Shown piece by piece: positions 56,880-62,824 of a stretch of 64,000 nucleotides of DNA. Within the stretch, counting starts at the first letter, position 1. Each line of letters begins with the position of its first letter. The notes under the pieces are model-generated. The model worked only from the letters and a program-made list of their open reading frames with translations. It did no database searches and had not been told where the DNA came from. Source of the stretch: Streptomyces sp. GS7 (GTDB lineage: Bacteria; Actinomycetota; Actinomycetes; Streptomycetales; Streptomycetaceae); contig NZ_CP047146.1 in assembly GCF_009834125.1 (NCBI RefSeq), positions 5,945,501 through 6,009,500 on the forward strand. Direction: 5' to 3'. The position numbers and the translations under genes are program-made.

Positions 56880-58337
56880 ATGGGCGCACAGTCGGCCGGA
56901 CCGCTCGTCGTCGGGGTGGACAGCTCGACGCAGTCCACCAAGACGCTGGTCGTGGACGCGGAGACCGGCGAGGTACTGGCCCGGGGCCAGGCCCCGCACA
57001 CCGTCAGCGGCGGCACGGGAGCGGACGGGGGCGAACCCGGCGGCAAGGAGAGCGATCCGGAGCAGTGGTGGCGGGCGCTCGGTGAGGCGTTGGACCGGTG
57101 CGGGGCGGCGGCCCGGCAGGCGTCCGCGGTGTCCGTCGCCGGGCAGCAGCACGGGCTGGTCGCCCTGGACGCGGCCGGCGCGCCGGTCCGCCCGGCGCTG
57201 CTGTGGAACGACGTACGGGCGGCGCCGCAGAGCGAGCGGCTGATCCGGGAGCGGGGCGGCGCCGAGGTCTGGGCGCAGCGGACCGGAAGCGTGCCGAGGT
57301 CCGCGTTCACCGTCGCCAAGTGGGCCTGGCTGTGCGACAACGAGCCGGAGGCCGCCGCGGCCACCGCCGCGGTCCGGCTGCCGCACGACTACCTGACGCA
57401 GCGGCTGACCGGCCAGGGCGTCACCGACCGCGGGGACGCGTCGGGGACCGGCTGGTGGGCGTCGGCCACCGAGGAGTACGACACGGAAGTCCTGGAGCAC
57501 GTCGGGCTGGCCCCGGAGAAGCTGCCGCGGGTGGCGCTGCCGGGCGAGGCCGCGGGCACCGTACGGAGCACGGAACTGCCGCTTCCCCAGGGGGCGTTGG
57601 TTACGGCCGGGACCGGTGACAACATGGCGGCGGCGCTGGGCCTGGGCCTGCGCCCCGGGCAGCCGGTGCTGAGCCTGGGCACCTCCGGCACGGTCTATGC
57701 GATCGCCACCCGCCGGCCGACCGATCCGACCGGGATCGTCGCGGGCTTCGCCGATGCCCGCGGCGACTGGCTGCCGCTGGCCTGCACCCTGAACTGCACG
57801 CTCGCGGTGGACCGGGTGGCGGCGCTGCTCGGCCGCGACCGGGAGGCCGTCGAGGCGGGCGGCAGCGCCGTACTCCTGCCCTTCCTGGACGGCGAGCGGA
57901 CCCCGAATCTGCCGCACGCCTCGGGGCTGCTGCACGGCCTGCGGCACGACACCACGGCCGGCCAGCTCCTCCAAGCGGCATACGACGGTGCGGTGTTCGC
58001 GCTGCTCCAGGCCCTGGAGCAGGTACTCGACGCGGATGCCGCGGCGGACGCGCCGCTGCTGCTGATCGGCGGCGGGGCCCGGGGCCGCGCCTGGCGGGAG
58101 ACCGTGCGGCGGCTCTCCGGGCGCCCGGTGGTGGTGCCCGAGGCGCAGGAGCTGGTGGCGCTCGGTGCCGCGGCGCAGGCGGCCGGGCTGCTGCTGGGCG
58201 AGGATCCGGCGGCGGTGGCGCGCCGCTGGGGGACGGCCCGCGGCGCGGCGTTCGAGGCGGTGGAGCGGGACACCGCCGCCTGCGACCGGCTGGCGGCGAC
58301 GCTCGCCGACGGGGCCGCCCTGCTCGGCCGCCGCTGA
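56880..58337 (+). CDS. xylB: Xylulokinase
   Basis: A 485-residue FGGY-family kinase that phosphorylates D-xylulose to xylulose 5-phosphate. VGVDSSTQSTKTLVVD is the phosphate-binding motif, SVAGQQHGLVALD the substrate strand, WNDVRAAPQ the next conserved segment, and TAGTGDNMAAALG contains the catalytic Asp. LSLGTSGTVYA and LIGGGARGRAWRET complete the family. A short Gly-rich loop (residues about 44-55) is longer than usual. Only seven residues precede the first strand, so there is no N-terminal extension. XylA, XylB and the ROK regulator form the xylose locus. Confidence 0.96.
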   Translation: MGAQSAGPLVVGVDSSTQSTKTLVVDAETGEVLARGQAPHTVSGGTGADGGEPGGKESDPEQWWRALGEALDRCGAAARQASAVSVAGQQHGLVALDAAGAPVRPALLWNDVRAAPQSERLIRERGGAEVWAQRTGSVPRSAFTVAKWAWLCDNEPEAAAATAAVRLPHDYLTQRLTGQGVTDRGDASGTGWWASATEEYDTEVLEHVGLAPEKLPRVALPGEAAGTVRSTELPLPQGALVTAGTGDNMAAALGLGLRPGQPVLSLGTSGTVYAIATRRPTDPTGIVAGFADARGDWLPLACTLNCTLAVDRVAALLGRDREAVEAGGSAVLLPFLDGERTPNLPHASGLLHGLRHDTTAGQLLQAAYDGAVFALLQALEQVLDADAAADAPLLLIGGGARGRAWRETVRRLSGRPVVVPEAQELVALGAAAQAAGLLLGEDPAAVARRWGTARGAAFEAVERDTAACDRLAATLADGAALLGRR

Positions 58338-58430
58338 CCGCCCGCTACCGCAGCTCCTGCTTCGCCCGGTTGCGGCACCCCCCAACCCGCCTTGCTCACA
58401 AGCCTCTTACGACCCTCCCGGGAGACCGCC

Positions 58431-59699
58431 ATGCCCGCCCCCGCCGACGACACCCCGCAGGGCATCCGCCGCCGCAATCTGGCCCGGGTGCTGCGGGTGG
58501 TGGCGGCCGAAGGGCCGCTGTCCCGGCCGGGTGTCGCGGCGCGGATCGGGCTGACCCGGGCGGGCGTGGCGCCGCTGGTCGACGCACTGCTGCGGGCCGG
58601 GCTGCTGGTGGAGACCGGGCCGGCGGCGACCGGCGGGCGCGGGCGGCCGGGCAGCGAACTGGCGGTCGGCGACCGGGGACCGGCCGGGATCGGGGCCGAG
58701 ATAGGCGTCGACCACCTGGCGGTGTGCGCGGTCGATCTGCGCGGCCGGGTCCGCGCCCGGGTGGCGGCGGACGCGGCGAACCGGCACAGCGAACCGGGGC
58801 CGGTGCTCCGGCGGTTGTCCGCCCTGGTGGCGGAGGTACGGACGGGGATCGCCGCCGAGGGGCTGCGGCCGGCCGGGCTGGCGGTCGCCGTCCCGGGGCT
58901 GGTGGCCCGGGGCTCGACGACGGTGGTGCACGCCCCCAACCTCGGCTGGCGGGACGCCGACCTGGCGCCCGCCCTGGCCCCGGAGTCCGGCGCCGGGGCC
59001 ATACCGCTGACCGTGGAGAACGAGGCGAACCTCGGCGCGCTCGCCGAACTGCGACTGGGCGGCGGCACCGGCCGGCCCACACCTCCGGACTTCCTGCACG
59101 TCTCGGCCGAGATCGGCATCGGCGCCGCGGTCGTGGTGGGCGGCCAACTGCTGCGAGGCGCACGGGGGTTCGCCGGTGAACTGGGGCACGTCCCGGTCCA
59201 TCCGGAGGGCCGCCCGTGCGACTGCGGCGGGCGGGGCTGCCTGGAGCAGTACGCGGGCGAGCGGGCCGTGCTGCGCGCCGGCGGGCTCTCACCGGAGCGG
59301 GCGGCGGCCGGCCGCCCGGGGCCGGGGGCCGCGGTCGCGCTGCTGGCGCGGCGGGCCGCCGACGGGGACGCGGCGACGGTCCGCGCCCTGCACGAGGCGG
59401 GCACCGCACTGGGGATCGCGCTCGCCGGGGCGGTGAACCTGCTCGATCCGCGGGCGGTGGTCCTCGGCGGTTCGCTGGCCGGGCTGGCGCCATGGGTCCT
59501 GCCGTCCCTGGAGCGGGAGTTGACACTGCGGACGGCCGTCGCGTCTCAACCGGCCGCTACAGGTGGACCGTTGGTGACCGTATCCCGACTGGGTGCCGAC
59601 GGCCCGCTGTTCGGCGCCGCGCACGCCGCGCTCCGCACCGTTCTGGACGATCCGCTGGCCTTTTCCCGGCACACCGTTCCCGGCACTGAAAACCGCTAA
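58431..59699 (+). CDS. xylR: ROK-family transcriptional regulator (XylR-like)
   Basis: A 422-residue ROK repressor. The N-terminal winged helix ([47 protein letters not shown]) precedes a ROK sugar-binding domain with [42 protein letters not shown] and the zinc motif [12 protein letters not shown]. It is 93 nt after xylB on the same strand and probably represses xylA and xylB until xylose is present. GGGAGACCGCC precedes the ATG. The encapsulin gene follows after about 150 nt. Confidence 0.92.
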
Positions 59700-59743
59700 A
59701 CCCTTTCCAGAGAAGCCGAATTCCATGCCACCCCATCCAGCGA

Positions 59744-59773
59744 TTGTGCGGCGAAAAGTCAGGCAACTATCTT
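59744..59773 (+). promoter_or_regulatory. Candidate promoter of the first encapsulin gene
   Basis: TTGTGC (59744-59749) and TATCTT (59768-59773) are 18 nt apart, close to a housekeeping -35/-10. They lie about 80 nt before the encapsulin start and after the ROK stop, so the shell genes may be transcribed independently of the xylose operon. Confidence 0.45.
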
Positions 59774-61264: not shown

Positions 61265-61325
61265 GGGGAAACCACCTCACCGTCCGGTCGGACCGCGCAC
61301 CCGGCGTTCCGGCCCCCTCCCGCAC

Positions 61326-61361
61326 GTCTTCTTCCTTGTCTTCTTCCTTGTCTTCTTCACG
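61326..61361 (+). repeat. Three tandem 12-bp pyrimidine repeats before encapsulin 2
   Basis: GTCTTCTTCCTT occurs at 61326-61337 and 61338-61349, and a third unit with two or three changes follows at 61350-61361. They sit in the 144-nt gap between the two shell genes. A role in transcript structure or slippage-based variation is possible but not shown. Confidence 0.75.
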
Positions 61362-61408
61362 GCTCGTGCAGAGCGTTACGTACCGAACGGAACAGGTGAA
61401 CCCTCGCC

Positions 61409-62824
61409 ATGACCACATCGGTGGACCCCACCTCCGGCCCGCAGGCGTCCGGCATCGAGCAGCTGCGCTCCAGCCTGGACACCGCCGCCGCCCGCAAGCT
61501 GGCGACCACGACCAAGACGCCGCCGCAGATGCAGGGCATCTCCTCGCGGTGGCTGCTGCGCATCCTGCCCTGGGCGGAGGTCGGCGGCGGCACCTACCGC
61601 GTGAACCGGCGGCTGACCCACACACTCGGCGACGGCCGGGTGGAGTTCGTCACCCAGGGCGCCGAAGTCCGGGTCATTCCACAGGAGTTGCGGGAGATGG
61701 CGCCGCTGCGCAGCTTCGACGACAACCCGACGCTGGAGGCGCTGGCCGACCGGTTCGTCCAGCGGGACTTCGCCCCCGGCGACGTCCTCGCCGAACGGGG
61801 CACGCCGACCGACCAGGTCATCCTGATCGCCCACGGCAAGCTCGAACGGCTCGGCACCGGCAAGTACGGCGACGAGACCGTGGTGGCGGTGCTCGCCGAC
61901 GGCGACGCGGTCGGCGAGGTGGCGCTGCTGATGCCGGACGCCGAGTGGGAGCACACCGTACGGGCGGTCACCCGCGGCACCGCGCTGACGCTGTCGCGCG
62001 CCGGGTACGAAGAGGTGCTGGGCCGTTCGGAGGCGCTGCGCGAGCATGTCGAGAACTTCCGCACGGCGCTGGTGCCCGCGCAGAACAAGCACGGTGAGGC
62101 GGCCATCGAACTGGCCGCCGGCCATGTCGGCGAGCCCGAGCTGCCGGGTACCTTCGTCGACTACGAGCGCGCGCCGCGGGAGTACGAACTCAGCGTCGCA
62201 CAGACCGTGTTGAAGATCCACTCGCGGGTCGCCGACCTCTACAACGACCCGATGAACCAGCTGGACCAGCAGCTGCGGCTCACGGTGGAGGCGCTGCGCG
62301 AGCGCCAGGAGCACGAGATGGTCAACAACCGCGAGTTCGGGCTGCTGCACAACGCCGACCTCAAGCAGCGCATCCACACGCGCAACGGCCCGCCCACCCC
62401 CGACGACCTGGACGAGCTGATCTCCCGGCGCCGCAAGACCCAGTTCCTGCTGGCGCATCCGCGCACCATCGCGGCCATCGGCCGGGAGTGGAACGCGCGC
62501 GGGATCTACCCGGCGAACACCGAGATCGACGGGACGGCGGTGCGCGCCTGGCGGGGCATTCCGCTGCTGCCCTGCAACAAGATCCCGGTCAACCCGGACC
62601 AGACCAGCTCGATCCTCGCGATGCGGGTCGGCGAGGAGAACCAGGGCGTGGTGGGGCTGCACCAGACCGGCATCCCGGACGAGTACCGGCCGGGTCTGTC
62701 GGTGCGCTTCATGGGCATCAATGAGCAGGCCGTCATCAAGTACCTGGTCAGCGCCTACTATTCGGCGGCGGTTCTGGTGCCGGACGCGCTGGGCGTGCTG
62801 GAGGACGTCGAGATCGGCCACTGA
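61409..62824 (+). CDS. Family 2B encapsulin shell protein 2 (EshA-like, CNBD intact)
   Basis: A 471-residue paralogue of shell protein 1, close to identical in the last about 30 residues and very similar elsewhere. The CNBD, about residues 100-220, keeps the phosphate-binding cassette GEVALL (169-174) and the following Arg185 ([12 protein letters not shown]), so it could bind cAMP or a related ligand. The S. griseus homologue EshA is known to form large multimers and to affect development. Twin shells are reported for family 2B loci. The gene ends in a perfect hairpin overlapping its stop codon. Confidence 0.92.

Follow-up and report, generated by a model that had tools for sequence, protein, structure and literature searches.

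A twin-shell encapsulin locus beside the xylose genes

The DNA considered here, which we call the window, is a stretch of 64,000 nucleotides from the complete 9.07 Mb genome of Streptomyces sp. GS7 (contig NZ_CP047146.1, positions 5,945,501 to 6,009,500), and it carries two adjacent genes for Family 2B encapsulin shell proteins behind a xylulokinase gene. Both shell genes lie on the forward strand, Enc1 at 59852-61264 (470 residues, read from an ATG) and Enc2 at 61409-62824 (471 residues), with a gap of 144 bp between them. Upstream on the same strand are xylB (56880-58337; TIGR01312, 449 bits against a cut-off of 380, with the FGGY motif GTGDN present) and a ROK-family regulator gene (58392-59699; PF00480, its N terminus weakly MarR-like). 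From this arrangement a first-pass annotation of the window had proposed a ligand-responsive compartment tied to pentose phosphorylation and built from two shell types. We find that orthologous shell pairs persist in relatives that have no xylB, and the reading that we prefer, to which we give about an even chance, is that the two proteins would form a mixed shell under independent control, with the essential cargo encoded elsewhere and XylB not obligatory.

The twin Family 2B shells behind xylB and a ROK gene are borne out by profile searches: both proteins score far above the cut-off of 400 bits of the NCBIfam family 2B shell model NF041163 (747 bits for Enc1, 773 for Enc2), and in Pfam both combine an SrpI-like HK97 shell (PF19307) with an inserted cNMP_binding domain (PF00027). 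The genes in the span that the first-pass annotation covered (56880-62824) are as described there, but the span leaves out others that matter: xylA (55485-56651, reverse strand; TIGR02631, 690 bits; 388 residues from the start adopted here, in a longer open reading frame that reaches 56744), an acetyl-xylan esterase AXE1 gene (54384-55349, forward strand; PF05448), which within the locus comparison occurs only in the window's group, and the ancestral flanking genes described below. The closest relatives at the locus are Streptomyces, and the locus belongs to an already published class, the XK-type two-component Family 2B encapsulin (PMC8346489; PMC12407261). It is two-component in that the shell genes lie within 10 kb of each other and Enc1 and Enc2 carry TVWK and RRRK, the motifs diagnostic of the two paralogues (PMC12407261), and XK-type in that a xylulokinase gene scoring above the TIGR01312 cut-off lies near them. 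XK loci are commonly enriched in acetylxylan esterases, xylR, and xylA (PMC8346489); their native cargo is given as so far undetermined, and two-component operons without obvious cargo are classed as 'Other' (PMC12407261).

Enc1 and Enc2 are 64% identical (298/468), with 54% identity in the inserted domain (48/89) and 66% in the remainder (250/379). Such a low value points to an old paralogue pair rather than a recent copy, and a recent tandem duplication is excluded by this identity together with the separate clades that Enc1 and Enc2 form in the window's group. Of the solved structures, 9bje is closest to Enc1 (863 bits) and 9bix to Enc2 (891 bits), and the inserted domain of Enc2 can be aligned with both. 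The structure listing labels both only as Crp/Fnr-type proteins; since each corresponds to the paralogue expected, we take them to be the pair from Streptomyces lydicus (PMC12407261). The two S. lydicus proteins combine into mixed shells whose composition varies, and that pair is the only one with closed-shell assembly in print, for Enc2 alone and for the mixture (PMC12407261). The earlier claim of two shell types in one locus therefore stands, with mixed shells demonstrated in S. lydicus, and by analogy with this orthologous pair the two proteins of the window may co-assemble into one mixed T=1 shell. The spacer between Enc1 and Enc2 also contains a pyrimidine-rich repeat, CTTCTTCCTTGTCTTCTTCCTTGTCTTCTTC (61328-61358).

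The inserted domain

In an alignment of 164 shell proteins, the column that we take, from CAP-type domains, to hold the phosphate-binding arginine is occupied by tryptophan in 160, at odds with the canonical Arg-bearing phosphate-binding cassette. The inserted shell domains are also reported to bind no cyclic nucleotide (PMC12407261). Together these two observations argue against a cyclic-nucleotide switch, which we reject on these grounds, and in this sense the proposal of a ligand-responsive compartment is not supported. It is possible that the domain responds to some other ligand; on the model of the S. lydicus pair, a degenerate domain that does not bind cAMP would be displayed at the two-fold pores of the shell.

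Linkage of xylB to the shell genes

Neighborhoods were compared for the best 80 loci from a scan with Enc1. In the window's group, defined as the 24 closest loci (L008-L030 and L076, all with 71% identity or more in Enc1), the shell genes have xylB beside them in 23, the exception being Streptomyces celluloflavus (L024); with the window included and L024 excluded, xylA and the ROK gene are both present in 12/24 loci and both missing in the other 12. In three Streptomyces groups XylB and the shells are no more than 7 kb apart (3.7 kb in S. buecherae, L060), and the linkage is real and recurrent. It favors the published view, which we consider possible but doubtful, of XylB as native cargo, enclosed in a mixed shell that modulates xylulose phosphorylation, with XylA and ROK as accessories. 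The XK systems on record, 124 in number and confined to Streptomyces, each have two shells (PMC8346489), which is also in keeping with that view.

Further evidence on the same side comes from genomes that lack xylA. Among 26 whole genomes (the window's, those of the 24 loci, and S. buecherae), 10 lack any relative of the TIGR02631-type XylA (E <= 1e-60), and nine of these keep a shell-linked xylB; two of the nine are complete chromosomes, S. noursei (L011) and S. buecherae, and most others are drafts. PF01261 was tried as a way to detect other xylose isomerases and proved too broad to inform. Four genomes (G169, G170, G171, and G173) have xylA elsewhere together with a second xylB at 61-62% identity, which adjoins xylA in three of them and lies on broken contigs in the fourth; the copy linked to the shells is therefore a distinct gene. 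Taken together, the XylA-less genomes and the second copies tie xylB more closely to the shells than to xylA. The ratio of nonsynonymous to synonymous divergence (dN/dS; Nei-Gojobori method, with non-independent pairs throughout) is 0.22 for XylB. The retention of xylB beside the shells in XylA-less genomes and this ratio weigh against the reading that we prefer and keep the idea of XylB as cargo alive.

A survey of 392 related genomes of the genus found XylB in 329 (E <= 1e-140) and XylA in 335 (E <= 1e-60). Fourteen genomes had XylB without XylA, a count read by eye from two long tables; two of them (G021 and G133) reflect contig breaks and were dropped, and among the remaining 12, several of which are already counted in the 26-genome set, shells stand beside XylB in seven (G031, G058, G179, G090, G200, G290, and G391), and in two (G072 and G083) the sole XylB is of a more distant type. 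Other genomes count against XylB as the cargo. G374 (L137) presents the reverse case, an acetyl-xylan esterase-xylB-amidase order in which xylB adjoins the amidase gene and the shells are missing from between them; this N-acetylmuramoyl-L-alanine amidase gene is the syntenic downstream marker of the locus (63028-63726 in the window, forward strand; PF01510). G089 and G121 keep XylB without XylA, and no shells lie beside XylB in the stretches examined. Nor did any of the 12 XylB examples displayed have a terminal extension, another point against XylB as cargo.

The genome of the window's strain has, in addition, a second xylulokinase (L221, 5473500-5478500; TIGR01312, 391 bits against 380) that is 54% identical to the window's XylB.

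Shells that persist without xylB

The persistence of intact shell pairs where XylB is absent is evidence against an obligatory role for it. In S. celluloflavus both shells are present and XylB and XylA are missing, from the locus and from genome searches. A larger set is a group of 14 loci that we call Streptoverticillium-type, including S. netropsis, S. olivoverticillatus, S. griseocarneus, and S. abikoensis. Their gene order is c15-(c16)-c14-c2-Enc1-Enc2-c6, with xylA, xylB, and ROK missing in 14/14. Both shells and c2 are found in all 14, c15, c14, and c6 in 13 each (the single missing cases fall at short contigs), and c16 in nine. The buecherae group (three loci) reads c15-(c16)-XylB-c18-c14-c2-Enc1-Enc2, and the order in the nine loci of what we call the violaceusniger group is c15-XylA-XylB-ROK-c18-c14-Enc1-Enc2, one of them having c2 as well. 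Locus comparisons identify c15 (49510-50949 in the window, forward strand; presumably a SWIM-type zinc finger protein) and c16 (51084-52052, forward strand; which we take to be YceI-like) as upstream markers of the ancestral block. Pfam matches identify c2 as a phosphodiester glycosidase, c6 as a lysyl-tRNA synthetase/lysyltransferase that has a membrane region, c14 as glycerophosphodiesterase-like, and c18 as a GNAT acetyltransferase.

No XylB orthologue is present in any of the 14 Streptoverticillium-type genomes, where the best identity is 44-46% in 12 and 55-56% in two, and XylA is absent from all three of them that were searched for it. The shell pairs in all 14 are open frames of normal length, with dN/dS of 0.196 for Enc1 and 0.183 for Enc2 (10 of the 14 loci, giving 45 pairs per gene), and group medians overall range from 0.17 to 0.28. 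That relatives keep their shells after losing xylB indicates that XylB is probably not the shell's essential content, and the case for XylB as essential cargo is weakened by these orthologous shells together with the separate upstream elements described below. It is very improbable that the shells are passive relics without dedicated cargo in these strains: such a reading would fit the finding that 0/14 Streptoverticillium-type loci have any of the four known cargo types next to their shells, but the dN/dS medians across the groups, intact diagnostic motifs, and the conservation of the block upstream of Enc1 count against it.

The direction of change was read from a quick tree built with 128 shell proteins (LG+G4, with the Shimodaira-Hasegawa-like approximate likelihood ratio test, SH-aLRT, as the only support), for which 82 pairs were reduced to 64 by leaving out every second outgroup, L021, L141, and stop-containing rows. 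Enc2 of all four groups falls on one side of a branch (SH-aLRT 99), and within it Enc2 of the Streptoverticillium, violaceusniger, and buecherae groups cluster together (SH-aLRT 99), nested inside XylB-linked groups, so the Streptoverticillium-type state is most simply a loss of xylB. Two results fit our preferred reading less well. In Enc1, a branch with support of 97 unites the Streptoverticillium and violaceusniger groups with a single one of the two buecherae rows, and the values for their placement relative to the window's group are 36 and 8. The shells of S. celluloflavus evolve somewhat faster, with dN/dS of 0.30-0.41, and the system there may be decaying.

Upstream elements

The xyl genes and the shell genes have separate upstream elements. 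Between the divergent xylA and xylB lies a conserved operator-like block (56735-56790) containing TTTACAAA at 56750-56757, which occurs within 230 bp upstream of xylB in 11/12 loci with XylA and ROK and in 0/12 loci without XylA; it is a putative operator to which the ROK protein would bind. An element of a common ROK regulon was also sought upstream of enc1 and rejected, as the exact string TTTACAAA is present in none of 24 regions of 200 bp. Instead, alignments of loci from the four groups reveal a different conserved block there (59696-59777, forward strand), probably a promoter, which unlike the xyl block is conserved in loci with and without ROK alike. Within the window's group the exact strings CCATGCCAC and GATTGTG stand upstream of Enc1 in 20/25 and 23/25 loci, respectively; the 26 loci of the other three groups have neither, and a block alignable only by eye occupies the same place there. 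The shell pair may be its own transcription unit, and the separateness of the upstream elements tells against XylB as cargo. Four strings tried as a motif shared between enc1 and the cyclase genes discussed below were found in none of 15 cyclase upstream regions, which align poorly.

The earlier idea of a tie to pentose phosphorylation accordingly survives in part: xylB is a recurrent neighbor, and the tie is weakened by the xylB-less shells of S. celluloflavus and all 14 Streptoverticillium-type loci, by the separate Enc1 upstream block, and by the XylBs displayed, which have no terminal extension.

Known cargo types and other clients

The window and 81 loci were searched by tblastn (E <= 1e-8) with one geosmin-type cyclase, 2-methylisoborneol (2-MIB)-type cyclase, polyprenyl transferase, and cysteine desulfurase. 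Of 31 other twin-shell loci used for comparison, drawn from 41 outside the XK-type, buecherae, and Streptoverticillium-type sets, 30 have at least one of these cargo types: the transferase in 24, the geosmin-type cyclase in 22, the 2-MIB type in two, and the desulfurase in none. None of the four occurs in the 64-kb window or in the 50 loci of the four groups (24, 9, 3, and 14 loci), so the whole lineage is without the usual neighboring cargo, with xylB or without it. This leaves XylB without a known competitor beside the shells of these groups, a point in favor of the published view. The first-pass annotation was right that no terpene cyclase or polyprenyl transferase lies in the window, as shown by the tblastn searches and by PF19086, whose six matches in the genome include none within the window. 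It had also named twin shells beside other cargo genes and away from xylB as an arrangement that would speak against its proposal; shells away from xylB do occur, in one clade, but none of the 14 loci there has another known cargo type beside them.

If XylB is not obligatory, the essential cargo would most likely be an enzyme encoded elsewhere in the genome. A distantly encoded polyprenyl transferase, the acetyl-xylan esterase, or the more distant FGGY kinase found at 43-46% identity in most genomes searched are examples of clients that we consider quite unlikely. The transferase is common near other twin shells, as noted, and the esterase is kept with the shells in XylB-less S. celluloflavus; however, the stretches fetched for the other three groups contain no match to the esterase, and two examples of the kinase that were scanned gave 311 and 318 bits, short of the XylB cut-off of 380.

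A geosmin-type cyclase as candidate cargo

The best candidate, as yet unproven, may be the two-domain geosmin-synthase-type terpene cyclase. Geosmin-type cyclases contain GPTGLGTSAAR, for which a targeting role has been suggested (PMC8346489), and the N-terminal arms of the shells contain a similar segment, L[G/S/D/A/T]TxAAR, in 77/82 Enc1 and 76/82 Enc2 proteins. Because the cyclase tail resembles the shell arm, docking by imitation of the arm is conceivable, with an LGTSAAR-type tail taking the part of SL[G/S/D]TxAAR. A search of the literature, its sources available in part, found no published link between the tail and the arm. Among 11 genomes of the four groups the tail has the form LGTSAAR at the end of the cyclase in eight, variants in two, and a copy between the domains only in one. 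In two complete genomes (G031 and G058) the twins are the sole Family 2B shells at the survey threshold and a cyclase with a GPTGLGTSAAR tail is encoded elsewhere; just three of the first 150 Streptomyces genomes lack Family 2B shells at that threshold. When arms and tails from the same genome were compared, the resemblance was strong in 8/18 own-locus pairs, with 8 or fewer of 300 shuffles equally good. The window genome's cyclase also reaches 1179.7 bits on the cargo model NF041168, just under the model's cut-off of 1200.

Many observations point the other way. Resemblance was weak in the remaining 10 pairs (at least 13 of 300 shuffles as good), and that between the window genome's cyclase and the window's Enc2 arm is at chance level (164 of 300). 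Exact LGTxAAR is found in only 32/82 Enc1 and 39/82 Enc2 arms, and the window's own arms read LSTAAAR in Enc1 and LDTAAAR in Enc2. The cyclase of the window's genome, at about 8.745 Mb, has the variant tail LGTSAVR. The tail is also not specific to genomes with these shells: in a search of 22 genomes (with a partial cyclase in G102 and none in G008 and G050), it occurs in some form in 11/11 genomes of the twin-shell groups and in 6/8 others with a full two-domain cyclase, the full cyclases of G003 and G013 having no tail. The shell count for G058 rests on 10 of 13 first-look candidates scored, and the polyprenyl transferase, which stands beside other twin shells more often than the cyclase (24/31), could instead be the distantly encoded cargo. 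A further 20 cyclases match NF041168 at 1118-1263 bits, two of them tail-less and matching only as far as profile position 714-715 of 735. Since all 20 match, those without a tail included, the model was dropped as a discriminator of tailed cyclases.

We therefore regard the cyclase as a lead, not a demonstration, and consider it unlikely in its specific form, in which XK-type and Streptoverticillium-type shells would package a distant cyclase through interdomain and C-terminal LGTSAAR segments that mimic the arm (SLGTxAAR) and XylB would be a syntenic passenger. A GPTGLGT pattern at the DNA level matched 7/10 genomes, the window's own not among them, against 3/10 for the reversed control. In a scan of the window's open reading frames in 44001-64000 with the arm motif, Enc1 was the sole match; as the pattern misses Enc2 itself (LDT), it is an insensitive test of XylB.

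Family 2B shells and cyclases also occur together elsewhere. In G043 (L191, contig C18, 88414-91798), another Streptomyces, a tailed two-domain cyclase has a Family 2B shell as its neighbor, which links the two within the genus. The genome of the window's strain contains three kinds of Family 2B system with four shells above the cut-off: besides the twins, a second shell at 4986000-4998000 (L223) accompanied by a cargo-type terpene cyclase (NF041167, above cut-off) and a geranyl diphosphate 2-C-methyltransferase (NF041943), a 2-methylisoborneol-type operon, and a third kind at 6680000-6688000 (L222) that adjoins a SufS-type cysteine desulfurase (NF041166, 640 bits, cut-off 800).

Implications and comparison with known systems

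On our preferred reading of a mixed shell with cargo encoded elsewhere, the xylA-xylB-ROK operon would be an ancestral syntenic neighbor, and XylB possibly a facultative client where a lineage keeps xylB. Natural cases of shells without xylB, xylB without xylA, and xylB without shells can help to decide whether XylB is cargo, and the Streptoverticillium-type species and S. buecherae are organisms whose native particles could show the true cargo. If the cyclase does load by imitating the arm, Family 2B shells would have a simple, engineerable loading rule.

Three known systems invite comparison. The window's locus resembles the two-component system of S. lydicus (L017) in its orthologous shells (83% and 84% identity), in the gene order xylA/xylB/ROK/Enc1/Enc2/amidase, and in the TVWK and RRRK motifs; assembly has been seen there, whereas the pair of the window's strain is known from sequence. 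With the XK-type systems of PMC8346489 it shares twin shells accompanied by xylB, ROK/xylR, xylA, and acetyl-xylan esterase, but the available part of that text does not describe the xylB-less orthologous twins of the present comparison. The two-component systems with a geosmin-type cyclase (NF041168 cargo) likewise have twin shells with similar arms and diagnostic motifs; there the cyclase gene stands beside the shells (22/31 loci), whereas in the window's genome it lies 2.7 Mb away.

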